From Serpentinicella alkaliphila (lineage in GTDB: Bacteria > Bacillota > Clostridia > Peptostreptococcales > Natronincolaceae), in NCBI RefSeq assembly GCF_018141405.1, contig NZ_CP058648.1, positions 2,123,001-2,187,000 of the forward strand: 64,000 nucleotides of DNA, read 5' to 3'. The notes under the pieces are model-generated. The model saw only the letters and a list, made by a program, of their open reading frames with translations, did no database searches and was not told the origin of the DNA. Positions 1,661 to 25,067 of this stretch are shown one piece after another; position 1 is the first letter of the stretch; each line of letters opens with the position of its first letter. The translations under genes and the position numbers were made by a program.

Positions 1661-2787
1661 ATAGCATATAACCTTTTTTGCAATGAGGACATAAGTGAAT
1701 ATCACTACCCATCATTTTAATAAGTATCTCAGCAGAGGTTAGTAGTAATTTAACCTTAGGATGAACTTTACCAGTTAAAAGTGTAATTAATTTTTTACAC
1801 GATTCTAAGGCTATTTTTTTGTTCTATTACATAATATTCCAAAGTGATGGATTTTAACAAATCTAGGTGGAAGAACATGAAGAAGAAAACGTCTAATAAA
1901 CTCCAAAGCATACAAAGACATAAGCTTCTGTTTGCCACCATCTTTGTAGTCCTTCTATTTAAAAGTAACCATATCATTTTCAACCTTAACAATACGATGA
2001 TTAGAGATAGTGACACGATGAGTATAATTTTCAAGGTATTTCATGATATGACTAGGCTTTTTAAAGTTAGGCTTAGAATCGACATTCCAAGGTATAGAAT
2101 ATAAAAAATCAATAAGCTCCTGAAACTTATTAGGGTCTTTTAAATAGTCGATATCTCCAAAGAAATTTAGCTCATTATTAGCATACAACCGTTTAAGATA
2201 AAAGAGAAATTTACCACGAAATACCGTTCCGAGGACCTTAATATGGATAAAGAATTTCTTTTTCGTTTGAACAAATTTAGTAGAATTCATAGCTAAGCCA
2301 CCACCAGGAATAATACAATGAAGATGAGGGTGAAATATAATGTTTTGTCCCCAAGTATGTAAAATAGAAGAAAATCCAATACTAGCACCTAAATGTTTAG
2401 GATCACTAGAAAGTTCCAAAAGAGTTTCAGAAGCAGCTTTAAACAAAAGATTATATATTTTCTCTTGGTTAAACAGAGTAATTAAGCGTAGCTCTTGGGG
2501 AAGAGTAAAGACTACGTGAAAGTAGTGAATAAGTAGCAAAGATTGCTCTTGCTTATTTAGCCACAGTTCTCTTTTAAAATCTTGACATTGAGGGCAGTGT
2601 ATATTTCTACAGGAGTCGTAGGAAATGATTTCATGACCACATTCTCTGCAAGTATGAACATGGGCATTATGGCAGAAGTGCGGCAGGTCTCAATAGCTTT
2701 CATTACCTTTGATTGATTAATAGTTACCCCATATTTTTCTCGGCACAATGCTCCATACTTATTAAAGATACTTTGGATGTCAGCCAT
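1620..2787 (-). pseudogene. IS91-family transposase, copy 1, inactivated
   Basis: The frame starts MADIQSIFNKYGALCREKYG after an ATG at 2785-2787. After a frameshift it has a Cys-rich zinc-binding stretch (HVHTCRECGHE...CRNIHCPQCQ), then LLLIHYFHVVFTLPQEL and the HUH motif HPHLHCIIPGGG typical of IS91/IS801 rolling-circle transposases. The lesions visible are one frameshift near 2675, a TAG in place of a sense codon at TFK-stop-KDYKDG (about 1955), and a further slip in an A-run near 1806. Copy 2 shares all three. The protein would nick and transfer single-stranded DNA at the element ends, but this copy cannot make it. Confidence 0.85.
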
Positions 2788-2788
2788 A

Positions 2789-3606
2789 TTATTCACCTAA
2801 TGTATTCATAGGACTGATAACATTTAAAATATCCTTGTTGGTCAAATGAAGATAAATACTAGTGGTTTGAATATTAGTATGACCAAGAAGCCTTTGAATA
2901 TAGATAAGATCAACACCAGATTTAAGAAGATGAGTAGCAAAGCTATTCCTTAAAGAATGAATAGAAACATCCTTAATAATACCAGCTCTATTCCTAGCAT
3001 CACGAAAAACAGCCTGCAAAGTACGAGTAGACAAAGGAGCTAAAGTTAACTCATTAGGAAATAACCGATCAGTAGGGCGATATAGCTTAAAATATTCACG
3101 AAGAATTAATAAATTAGAATTACCTAATAAAGAATAGCGGTCCTTATTACCTTTAGCACCACGAATATGAATTTGCATATTAGAACTGTCAATATCAGAG
3201 ACTTTCAGATTACAAACTTCACTAACCCGTAGTCTAGCAGAAGAGGTAGTCATTAAAATTGCTTTGTGCTTTAAATTTGTAGTTAAATCGAATAATTTTT
3301 TGACTTCATCTTTAGATAAAACGACAGGAAGTTTTTTAGCTTTTTAACCCTAGGAACGTTTTACATATTCCAATCACGACCCAAGGTTGTTTCAAAGAAA
3401 AACTTAATAGCACTGTAGGCAGTATTAACAAAAGAAGAGCTTAATTTTCTAACAGTAATACTGTGGAATAAATAATCTCGAATATCATCCTCGGTAAGTA
3501 ATCCAGGAGGTTTAGCAAAATGCTTAGACAAGTGAGATACGTTGGTATTAGGACTATATTCCTTTAAAGTTAAATCCATTTTCATTTTTTCTAATAACTG
3601 AGACAT
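2789..3606 (-). pseudogene. XerD-like tyrosine recombinase, copy 1, inactivated
   Basis: The N-terminal SAM-like core-binding domain (MSQLLEKMKMDLTLKEYSPNT...) ends at a TAA where a Lys codon (DWNMK) is expected. A frameshift follows near 3330 and the catalytic domain continues as KLPVVLSKDEVKKLF...GLRVSEV, with R...HSLRNSFATHLL, LLGH and the tyrosine in TTSIYLH. The catalytic residues R, K, H-x-x-R, H and Y are all recognisable. It lacks the extra alpha-2 insertion expected between boxes in integron integrases, so it is XerD/phage-like rather than classic IntI. This copy also lost 18 bp encoding QKTYLD. It overlaps the transposase start closely, suggesting one transcript. Confidence 0.85.
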
Positions 3607-10890: not shown

Positions 10891-12017
10891 ATAGCATATA
10901 ACCTTTTTTGCAATGAGGACATAAGTGAATATCACTACCCATCATTTTAATAAGTATCTCAGCAGAGGTTAGTAGTAATTTAACCTTAGGATGAACTTTA
11001 CCAGTTAAAAGTGTAATTAATTTTTTACACGATTCTAAGGCTATTTTTTTGTTCTATTACATAATATTCCAAAGTGATGGATTTTAACAAATCTAGGTGG
11101 AAGAACATGAAGAAGAAAACGTCTAATAAACTCCAAAGCATACAAAGACATAAGCTTCTGTTTGCCACCATCTTTGTAGTCCTTCTATTTAAAAGTAACC
11201 ATATCATTTTCAACCTTAACAATACGATGATTAGAGATAGTGACACGATGGGTATAATTTCCAAGGTATTTCATGATATGACTAGGCTTTTTAAAGTTAG
11301 GCTTAGAATCGACATTCCAAGGTATAGAATATAAAAAATCAATAAGCTCCTGAAACTTATTAGGGTTTTTTAAATAGTCGATATCTCCAAAGAAATTTAG
11401 CTCATTATTAGCATACAACCGTTTAAGATAAAAGAGAAATTTACCACGAAATACCTTTCCGAGGACCTTAATATGGATAAAGAATTTCTTTTTCGTTTGA
11501 ACAGATTTAGTAGAATTCATAGCTAAGCCACCACCAGGAATAATACAATGAAGATGAGGGTGAAATATAATGTTTTGTCCCCAAGTATGTAAAATAGAAG
11601 AAAATCCAATACTAGCACCTAAATGTTTAGGATCACTAGAAAGTTCCAAAAGAGTTTCAGAAGCAGCTTTAAACAAAAGATTATATATTTTCTCTTGGTT
11701 AAACAGAGTAATTAAGCGTAGCTCTTGGGGAAGAGTAAAGACTACGTGAAAGTAGTGAATAAGTAGCAAAGATTGCTCTTGCGTATTTAGCCACAGTTCT
11801 CTTTTAAAATCTTGACATTGAGGGCAGTGTATATTTCTACAGGAGTTGTAGGAAATGATTTCATGACCACATTCTCTGCAAGTATGAACATGGGCATTAT
11901 GGCAGAAGTGCGGCAGGTCTCAATAGCTTTCATTACCTTTGATTGATTAATAGTTACCCCATATTTTTCTCGGCACAATGCTCCATACTTATTAAAGATA
12001 CTTTGGATGTCAGCCAT
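10889..12017 (-). pseudogene. IS91-family transposase, copy 2, inactivated
   Basis: Carries the HUH motif HPHLHCIIPGGG and the Cys-rich N-terminus, with the frameshift near 11905, the TAG after TFK near 11185 and the A-run slip near 11036 in common with copy 1. Single-residue differences from copy 1 (for example NSTKS for NSTKF, MKYLGNY for MKYLENY) show that the copies have since diverged slightly. The C-terminus is cut by the inversion. Confidence 0.85.
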
Positions 12018-12018
12018 A

Positions 12019-12854
12019 TTATTCACCTAATGTATTCATAGGACTGATAACATTTAAAATATCCTTGTTGGTCAAATGAAGATAAATACTAGTGGTTTGA
12101 ATATTAGTATGACCAAGAAGCCTTTGAATATAGATAAGATCAACACCAGATTTAAGAAGATGAGTAGCAAAGCTATTCCTTAAAGAATGAATAGAAACAT
12201 CCTTAATAATACCAGCTCTATTCCTAGCATCACGAAAAACAGCCTGCAAAGTACGAGTAGACAAAGGAGCTAAAGTTAACTCATTAGGAAATAACCAATC
12301 AGTAGGGCGATATAGCTTAAAATATTCACGAAGAATTAATAAATTAGAATTACCTAATAAAGAATAGCGGTCCTTATTACCTTTAGCACCACGAATATGA
12401 ATTTGCATATTAGAACTGTCAATATCAGAGACTTTCAGATTACAAACTTCACTAACCCGTAGTCCAGCAGAAGAGGTAGTCATTAAAATTGCTTTGTGCT
12501 TTAAATTTGTAGTTAAATCGAATAATTTTTTGACTTCATCTTTAGATAAAACGACAGGAAGTTTTTTAGCTTTTTAACCCTAGGAACGTTTTACATATTC
12601 CAATCACGACCCAAGGTTGTTTCAAAGAAAAACTTAATAGCACTGTAGGCAGTATTAACAAAAGAAGAGCTTAATTTTCTAACAGTAATACTGTGGAATA
12701 AATAATCTCGAATATCATCCTCGGTAAGTAATCCAGGAGGTTTAGCAAAATGCTTAGACAAGTGAGATACGTTGTCCAAATAAGTTTTTTGGGTATTAGG
12801 ACTATATTCGTTTAAAGTTAAATCCATTTTCATTTTTTCTAATAACTGAGACAT
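12019..12854 (-). pseudogene. XerD-like tyrosine recombinase, copy 2, inactivated
   Basis: N-terminal domain MSQLLEKMKMDLTLNEYSPNTQKTYLDNVSHL is complete. The TAA after DWNM (near 12594) and the frameshift in the KKLKN run (about 12560) are identical to those of copy 1. The catalytic part has GLRVSEV, HSLRNSFATHLLKSG, LLGHTNIQTTSIYLH. The order recombinase then transposase, almost touching, matches two-gene IS91-like units known from other bacteria. Confidence 0.85.
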
Positions 12855-22639: not shown

Positions 22640-22757
22640 ACTAGACGTGGATACATTAGGAATTACAGAGCACCACTTCCCTTCACCGGGAGGAAAACTC
22701 CACCAAGGGGTAGGTTTATCGGATCCGGCTCAGGGACTTCGAAACACAAAACCGTTA
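22640..22757 (+). repeat. attC-like site O, left part eroded, split by a group II intron
   Basis: The common-type interior is recognisable (CAGAGCACCACTTCCC, GGGAGGAAAACTCC, ending TTCGAAACACAAAACC). The right core begins GTTA at 22754-22757 and is cut there by the intron start GTGCGCC. After the intron the sequence continues (A)GACTAATGG, so the uninterrupted core would read GTTAGAC or GTTAAGA. The left core and arm are not recognisable. Confidence 0.65.
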
Positions 22758-23228
22758 GTGCGCCAAGTAAAGCTTGGCATTTCTTACAGGGTGAGAGTCC
22801 CTGTCAGGCAAGGTCTAGCCAACTACCTGTATCGAGTGTTGCACCGATGCTAGCGACAGCAAAGGTGAAGCGTACACAGAGAATCAAATAGGCCATAGGG
22901 GAGACCGTAATCCCTGAAGCATATTCAGCCCCGTAAATCGTGTTCCTAGTAAAATAGGAAGAATGCAGATGACGACGTGTTTAACGTTACGGAAGTCAAT
23001 ACAAGAGAATCGTTATTGGTGAGATTCTTGAGGGTCTGTCGGGGTCATAGAACATGGCATGTATGAAGAGGATATCAGGAACTTAGGAGGACCTGTAGGT
23101 TCCAGCAACTGCTGGTAGACCTATCCAACCGAAAAATAGGACGGTCAATGACACTACAGGGTTCGGATCAACTCATAGTATTTTAAGGTTGGGAGAGCCC
23201 ACTACATGGGGAATAGGTTGACAGAAAT

Positions 23229-24844
23229 ATGTACTTCGTAAAGGAAACATTAGCCGGACATGTAGGGCTGGACAAACTAATGCAAACCTCACTGCGAGGA
23301 ATAAGGCAGAAGGCAAAACAAAATAAAAAGCATAGATTTCAAAACCTGTATCAACTACTAAATGAAAATACTTTGACAGAATCTTGGAGGAAATTAAACA
23401 AGAAGGCCTCAGCTGGTGTTGATAAGATAACTGCTAAGGAGTTTGAGTTAAATCTAAAGGAAAATATCAAAGAAATTACCAGTAGTTTAAAGGATAGAAG
23501 ATATCGTGCAAAACTAGTTCGTAGAGTTAACATACCGAAAGGAAACGGTAAAACCCGTCCACTTGGTATTCCGACAATATCAGATAAACTAGTTCAAAAG
23601 GTCTGTCGCCGAAATATTAGAAACTATTTATGAAGAAGATTTTCTAGATTGTAGTTATGGATATCGTCCCAATATAGGGGCGCATCATGCGATAAAAGAC
23701 CTAACTAAAGAGCTACAGTTTAATAAGTATAGCTATGTAGTAGAAGCTGATATAAAAGGGTTCTTTAATGATATTGACCATGAATGGTTAATTAGGATGA
23801 TTGAAGAAAGAGTACATGATAGTGCTATACTAGGCTTAATCAGAAAATGGTTAAAAGCAGGGGTGCTTGACGTCAATCAGCAAGTGATACATCCAGCAAC
23901 TGGAACTTCTGAAGGTGGATTATGCAAAGTTGATGATTATGCAAAGTAAACTCTGCAAAGCATTGAATTGTATAGTGTTTCGAAGAATTTACTTAGCATA
24001 ATATCCTAAGCTGTTTTTAAGTGAAAAGCTTAGGAAGTATCTTTTTTACTTGTTTCAGTCGTATATTTTTCTAAATTCTTTGAAAAATTGTGCTTTGCCT
24101 TATATCTCCAAGTGGAACATTATGCAAAGTAAAATTACAATGACATTTGTATTTATAAGGATTTGAGGTGTTTACTTTACATAATTACTTACTTTGCATA
24201 AGGTGGTATCATTAGTCCGATTCTAGCAAATATATATCTGCACTTTGTTCTAGACTTATGGTTCCAGAAAATAGTAAAGCCTAGATGTGAAGGAGAGGCA
24301 TACCTTTGTAGATACTGTGACGATTTTGTATGTGCCTTTCGATATAAGAAGGATGCAGAAAAGTTCTACGTAGCACTAGGTAATAGATTAGGAAAATTTG
24401 GACTAGAATTATCCAAGGAAAAGACCAATATCATTAGCTTCTCAAGGTTCCGCAAGGAAGAAAATACTCATTTTGATTTTATGGGGTTCGAGTTTAGAAG
24501 GGATGTATCCCTTAAAGGAAAAGATATTATTAAAAGAAGTACTTCCAAGAATAAACTAAGAACTTCCTTGTTGAATTTCAAAGTATGGTGCAGGGAGAGT
24601 CGAGATAAGAGAATGAGGAAAATAACTGAGGGGATATTATAACTACTACGGATTGATTGGAAACTACAAAAGTCTATGGAAATTCTATACTATAGCTATG
24701 GGGATATTATATAAGTGGCTAAATAGACGAAGTCAGAGAAAGAGCTTCAACAGGAGTGAATTCACTAGACTAATGAAACGGTATGGAATATTAAAGCCAA
24801 GGATTTTAGAGAGTGGAAATCAACAGTTAGAATTTCAATTTTGA
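23229..24844 (+). pseudogene. Group II intron reverse transcriptase/maturase, broken
   Basis: The RT0-RT4 blocks appear in three frames: SWRKLNKKASAGVDKIT and RRVNIPKGNGKTRPLGIPT; then ILETIYEEDFLDCSYGYRPN and VVEADIKGFFNDIDH; then TSEGG / IISPILANIYLHFVLDLWF and the catalytic RYCDDFVCAF. The maturase X domain and tail (GYYNYYGLIGNYKSLWKFY...YGILKPRIL) follow. There are frameshifts near 23610 and 24640 and a 282-bp insertion at the GG-IISP position, so the protein is not made and any splicing would need help in trans. Confidence 0.85.
23919..24200. mobile_element. 282-bp MITE-like insertion in the maturase gene
   Basis: The insert begins ATTATGCAAAGT and ends ACTTTGCATA, an inverted repeat, and is flanked by AGGTGG on both sides (23913-23918 and 24201-24206). 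The 12-mer ATTATGCAAAGT recurs at 23936 and 24119, so the ends carry multiple repeats, as in IS21-type elements. It encodes no protein. Removing it restores TSEGG-IISP in the reverse transcriptase. Confidence 0.75.
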
Positions 24845-25067
24845 CTTGCTGAATTACGGAACCGAATATTTCTGAAGATCCCGGTGCGGTAGTTCCGCAC
24901 ACCGGGATCTGTGCGGGTGCGTCGGGTAACTGGCGCGTCTACCGTGACTGTGATAGACTAATGGAATTTTAGAGTGTATTTATAGGGACGTATTAATTAT
25001 AGTTTAGAGTATTTAAAATTGCTATAAGTTAGCAAAGATTATTTATATAACAGAAAGAGGTATATTT

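Follow-up and report, generated by a model that had tools for sequence, protein, structure and literature searches.

A degenerate group II intron in an attC-like repeat of Serpentinicella alkaliphila, and a non-IIC lineage that very probably homes to the attC right core

The genome of Serpentinicella alkaliphila (G000, the host) is a single contig of 3.26 Mb, and the window analysed here, i.e. the whole 64-kb stretch of DNA under study, corresponds to C1:2123001-2187000. An integron-like array of ~63 kb (G000:C1:2085135-2149808) covers window positions 1-26808 and continues upstream. A profile built from seven repeats locates at least 34 attC-like repeats between C1:2086940 and 2149808, every one of them on the + strand; a gene for a tyrosine recombinase of 347 residues lies ~0.8 kb ahead of the first of them. 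A position-wise listing revealed the outer cores TAAC ... GTTA in most repeats, with flanking bases that match RYYY/RRRY loosely. The window also carries, on the minus strand, a duplicated unit (1955-3253 and 11185-12483, 9.2 kb apart, flanks 99% identical) that combines fragments of two genes, one from the 3' portion of a XerA-like recombinase gene and the other from an IS91-type transposase gene. A second, small attC-like locus of the host (L030, G000:C1:2623000-2629000) contains a 3' intron fragment ahead of a cassette of the main array. The features of the intron insertion in the window are as follows (window coordinates, with the basis of each assignment in brackets).

22659-22757, + strand: 5' exon, the right portion of an attC-like repeat with no left core, its last bases being the core CCGTTA (repeat-profile match)
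22752-22757, + strand: IBS1, CCGTTA (five of six bases pair with EBS1)
22758-24948, + strand: whole group II intron, degenerate, GUGCG...AC (RF02005 match, both ends aligned with full-length copies from other genomes)
22794-23054, + strand: intron RNA core, domains I to IV (Rfam match, RF02005)
22982-22987, + strand: EBS1, UAACGU, in a loop of domain I (complementary to the ACGUUA core; in distant RF02005 introns this loop is complementary to the respective 5' exon)
23229-24844, + strand: broken remnant of the intron-encoded RT/maturase, TIGR04416 (profile match to reading-frame pieces)
23602, + strand: insertion of 1 base, RT frameshift (alignment with the four copies of genome G037)
23911-24198, + strand: insertion of 288 bp with terminal inverted repeats TTATGCAAAGT, target repeat GGTGG, edges uncertain by several bases (alignment)
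24625, + strand: deletion of 20 bases, second RT frameshift (alignment with the G037 copies)
24877-24909, + strand: domain V (alignment with relatives, fold)
24941, + strand: domain VI, proposed branch-point A, 8 bases before the 3' end (position, fold)
24949-24960, + strand: 3' exon, the beginning of the downstream cassette (TGTGATAGACTA), which restores GTTATGTGA (3' ends of relatives, empty sites)

The first-pass annotation had placed a group II intron here, with its first bases, GTGCGCC, directly after CCGTTA in the right core of an attC-like repeat, and on both counts it proved correct. The match to RF02005 (group-II-D1D4-6) reaches 132.1 bits (E 3e-37) over model positions 1-225 of 225 and is the sole structured RNA that Rfam identifies in the window. 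The concatenated reading-frame pieces of the RT remnant score 330.6 bits against TIGR04416 (group_II_RT_mat; cut-off 300), and no endonuclease domain was seen in this remnant. The intron starts at 22758; the repeat portion that precedes it matches model positions 52-151 of the repeat profile (E 1.9e-7) and is 80-85% identical to the best-matching intact repeats.

Copies aligned from the first base of the intron were found in G037 (four copies), Natronincola (L036 = L038) and G002; the alignment extends to the last base in the G037 and Natronincola copies, but not in G002. The ends GUGCG...AC, which conform to the group II pattern GUGYG...AY, are present in the window copy and in five full-length relatives, and the full copies of relatives terminate, like the window copy, in CTACCGTGAC. 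A cassette beginning with GATGACAGACTATCAAA is present in the host in an empty form, directly after CGTTA (CGTTA/GATGACAGACTATC, at C1:2103041 and 2113922), and in a filled form, CGTGAC/GATGACAGACTATC, in L030 (host) and L037 (G037). Thus, the 3' ends of relatives and the comparison of a cassette with and without the intron both place the intron end at 24948 (splice site 24948/24949). The earlier reading, in which (A)GACTAAT behind the intron completes the core, was right in that a core is restored, but its boundary has to be moved, since the true end lies about nine bases earlier. Removal of the intron gives the exon junction GTTA/TGTGATAG (GTTA/TGTGA), and the restored core GTTATGTGA also occurs at two further array sites (C1:2105070 and 2108154). 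In related copies the first bases behind the intron are complementary, as expected of a cassette start, to the left core of the attC that follows (L030, +741; L102/L056, +1612; L108, +1467); the search for such an own-attC left core downstream of the window copy found none, so that its 3' exon is without confirmation by this route.

The window copy is, to judge from its sequence, a dead relic, because its RT can no longer be made (three breaks) and its domain V is mutated. The latter reads GAUCCC, compared with GAGCCC in most relatives, the change at 24879 turning the triad AGC into AUC. The domain V fold is present, and RF00029 gave no match to the window copy at E up to 1. In domain V of the lineage (e.g. 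L037, L036 and L030), which RF00029 misses, the loop is UAGUU and the triad G lies in a G.A opposition; other RF02005 introns have G.U at this position, not G.A. The 288-bp element within the RT gene resembles a small non-autonomous transposable element.

Whether the repeats are integron attC sites can be judged without reference to the intron. Integron recombination crosses over at G/TT, so a cassette is expected to start with bases complementary to the left core of the attC that belongs to it. In the host array, the start of a cassette agrees with the left core of the repeat at its downstream end at a mean of 4.29 of 6 positions, compared with 2.83 for random pairing and 3.62 for the highest of 2000 shuffles; the attC reading therefore stands independently of the intron. 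The intron adds to it, as the first-pass annotation had argued, by its insertion in the right core, the restoration of the core on removal, and its presence at the same site in other genera. A different repeat family (e.g. REP-like or terminator), merely targeted by the intron, is very improbable: besides the array-wide agreement of cassette starts, repeats of unrelated inner sequence have nothing in common except the cores and paired arms, and the array is preceded by a recombinase gene whose product has its closest match among solved structures in the integron integrase IntI4 (2a3v). What speaks for another family is the recombinase itself, which scores 226.5 bits against the integron-integrase model TIGR02249, below the cut-off of 265, while passing a XerA-like cut-off, and which lacks the IntI-specific insertion between the halves of the catalytic domain (12 residues opposite the 54 residues 186-239 of 2a3v). 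Relatives of this protein were found in 11 of the 20 genomes of the host family. By these sequence features the array is integron-like and its recombinase IntI-like without the IntI-specific insertion; the recombinase would be active and the cassettes would recombine. The attC-like cassette array, the cassette-end signature and the adjacent recombinase gene are shared with chromosomal integrons, which differ in that the host recombinase is devoid of the IntI-specific segment and the host is a relative of Clostridium. Complete integrons are almost unreported among Clostridium relatives; IntegronFinder 2.0 identified one complete integron in Firmicutes, in Limnochorda pilosa (PMC9024848).

The distribution of the intron was analysed in (i) the host family, (ii) the phylum and (iii) IMG/VR. 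A contig scan gave a single homologue, in Natronincola peptidivorans, which is the closest named relative by intron RT; the others were obtained by genome searches with DNA queries. Among 20 genomes of the host family, 8 contained a total of 23 intron copies or fragments. Wherever the 5' end is intact (19 family copies), the intron follows (C/T)GTTA (CGTTA, 17; TGTTA, 2), and chance is not a sensible explanation for this position. A TAAC-headed attC-like stem (score of at least 6) accompanies 12 of the 19, compared with 4.3% of shuffles; in the 7 others the left half of attC is missing, weak or eroded, and a complete attC is absent at L074, L079, L083, L088 and the window copy. In the phylum survey the intron was present in 15 of 398 genomes, and where the 5' end could be read (11 copies), 7 follow CGTTA and five have a strong stem. 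The 32 IMG/VR matches to a 15-base junction pattern were mostly due to chance; the intron continues, after CGTTA, in four contig stretches only (L117, L121, L134 and L139), three of which, two from the same contig, display perfect 11-bp attC arms. The two, L121 and L139, belong to a 71-kb contig (IMGVR_UViG_3300036987_000202) that thus carries two copies of the lineage at attC-like sites.

When all copies were pooled, 20 of 34 showed a TAAC-headed stem with a score of at least 6 (4.3% of shuffles). In the host family the intron is oriented in the same direction as attC and, in the host array, as the cassettes; the first base of the 3' exon is variable (T, C or G). The RTs of attC-associated copies form a single clade (support 99/99) in a tree that omits L041, which carries two RTs and lacks a clear 5' end. 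There are exceptions: the intron follows CCGTTA inside an apparent protein-coding frame in L117, AAGTTA at the end of a frame in L150, and AGTCA in L156, and in L161 no attC is visible. The frame at L117:4577 is possibly phage portal-like, and its expression would require splicing. Since some relatives (L117, L150, L156) show no attC, the site does not appear to be obligatory: either attC is preferred, or the six-base match alone may suffice.

The choice of target can be related to the intron RNA. The loop in domain I of the lineage reads UUUAACGUYA, and its UAACGU segment is complementary to ACGUUA, the hexamer with which the usual 5' exon ends; the ACGTTA of most relatives pairs at 6/6 positions and the CCGTTA of the window at 5/6. 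Further RF02005 introns occur in plasmids of Sinorhizobium and Peribacillus and in other Clostridia. They share the RNA family and have RTs ~42-47% identical to that of the lineage, but they are inserted in unrelated sequences and, where examined, possess a different EBS1. In introns of this RNA family at unrelated sites, the same loop matches the respective exon (CGGTTC/GAACCG, GCGTCC/GGACGC, AGAAACA/TGTTTCT, GAGGTG/CACCTC and TTTTCG/CGAAAA). EBS1 thus covaries with the target across RF02005 introns, and because the same loop in distant members complements their own exons, retargeting of EBS1 accounts for the attC habit. The comparison of homologues' sites proposed in the first-pass annotation gave a divided answer: the close homologues lie at attC-like cores, whereas those with ~42-47% identical RTs, from other families of the order, lie at unrelated sites and have a changed EBS1. 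A related RF02005 lineage in genome G001 (loci L048, L059 and L062) is repeatedly inserted after GAGGTG, possibly at ribosome-binding sites.

This pairing also lends weight to pure sequence homing, in which any ACGTTA would serve, attC being hit through the many harmless, single-stranded or transcribed sites of an array and its hairpin having no role. The covarying 6-bp pairing, the variability of the bases upstream of IBS1 and the insertions at (A/C)GTTA outside attC (L117, in an apparent coding frame, and L150) all agree with such a process. However, by chance any genome should contain ACGTTA roughly every 4 kb on each strand (an expectation, not a count), yet at least 20 of the 34 copies occupy stem-bearing attC-like sites, and we regard pure sequence homing as a serious possibility, though a doubtful one. 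The attC hairpin may aid targeting beyond the six-base match.

The first-pass annotation had linked the insertion to the habit of group IIC-attC introns, and this comparison does not hold. Such introns, according to the excerpted description in PMC7923331, insert into the bottom strand of attC at TTGT/T in the R'' core, in the opposite direction to the cassettes, and combine a class IIC RNA and RT with a 3-4-bp IBS1-EBS1 pairing plus the hairpin. They resemble the present lineage in that group II introns home to attC cores and in that the RT (e.g. of S.ma.I2) lacks an endonuclease domain; the lineage studied here differs in being of the RF02005 family and in its insertion into the top strand, at GTTA/ in the R' core, in cassette direction, with a 6-bp IBS1. 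It is hardly tenable that the intron is a known member of this group, with the attC hairpin replacing IBS2, although it is inserted in an attC core beside a hairpin-forming repeat and has no endonuclease domain. The IIC-type introns of the host itself match RF02001/RF01998, the window intron RF02005. The RT here scores 124 bits against GsI-IIC, where the IIC-type RT of the host reaches 532 bits, and the domain V triad is AGC in relatives of the lineage and AUC in the window copy, not CGC as in group IIC-attC. We therefore rejected membership, given the differences in RNA family, triad, RT, IBS1-EBS1 length, strand, orientation and position.

Non-IIC introns in cassette arrays have been described before. 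In the excerpted text of PMC7923331, UHB.I2 and H.ha.F1/F2 are group IIB introns from hypersaline samples located near attC. UHB.I2 resembles the present lineage in being inserted immediately after attC in cassette direction; by its description it differs in class (CL1), ends (UUGCG..GU) and the poor conservation of exons among its homologues. H.ha.F1/F2 are described there as class E and 5'-truncated. That excerpt reports neither lineage-wide attC specificity nor a match of EBS1 to the core for these introns. In open-licence papers on attC-targeting non-IIC introns and on integrons with Natronincola, nothing relevant was found beyond PMC7923331, and an earlier report is possible.

Three of the G037 copies are 99.4-99.8% identical and have different flanks on both sides, which points to recent mobility of the lineage. 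The same copies bear on the idea that the introns are mainly passengers of cassettes moved by the recombinase, their common position reflecting a few old insertions. The location of the intron three bases within the downstream cassette is in line with this, as is its presence on the same cassette in the host (L030) and in a second genus (L037, G037). Against it, the three near-identical copies precede three different 3' cassettes and follow different 5' attC sites, and the position recurs in many genera; such passive carriage as the main process is very improbable.

The element is very probably a degenerate mobile group II intron (RF02005, not IIC, with an endonuclease-less RT) of a lineage that homes to the right core of attC. 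By the known mechanism of group II introns, its RNA would be transcribed together with the cassettes, spliced with the aid of its own RT/maturase and inserted by reverse splicing between GTTA and the next base of the top strand, after which a DNA copy of the intron would be made at the target site. An array would offer dozens of targets in non-coding repeats, so that insertion would cost the host little. As recombination takes place at G/TTA, the insertion point falls three bases within the next cassette, and the intron would therefore form the 5' leader of that cassette. A more far-reaching account, whose chances we put somewhat short of even, is that of a whole non-IIC lineage, spread across many genera of Bacillota and IMG/VR contigs, whose EBS1 has evolved to match the attC right core; its introns would serve as the 5' leader of mobile cassettes and spread by retrohoming as well as by cassette recombination, in integron-like arrays whose recombinase is devoid of the IntI-specific domain.

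From the sequences compared here, the lineage appears to represent a second type of attC-specialised group II intron, on the opposite strand relative to group IIC-attC. If this is true, a second, separate group II lineage has settled on integron recombination sites, using the other strand and plain pairing rather than the hairpin, and whether retroelements are attracted to attC by its sequence or by its fold would become directly testable. The introns would also provide sequence-based markers of attC in Clostridia, where standard integron searches have yielded almost nothing.
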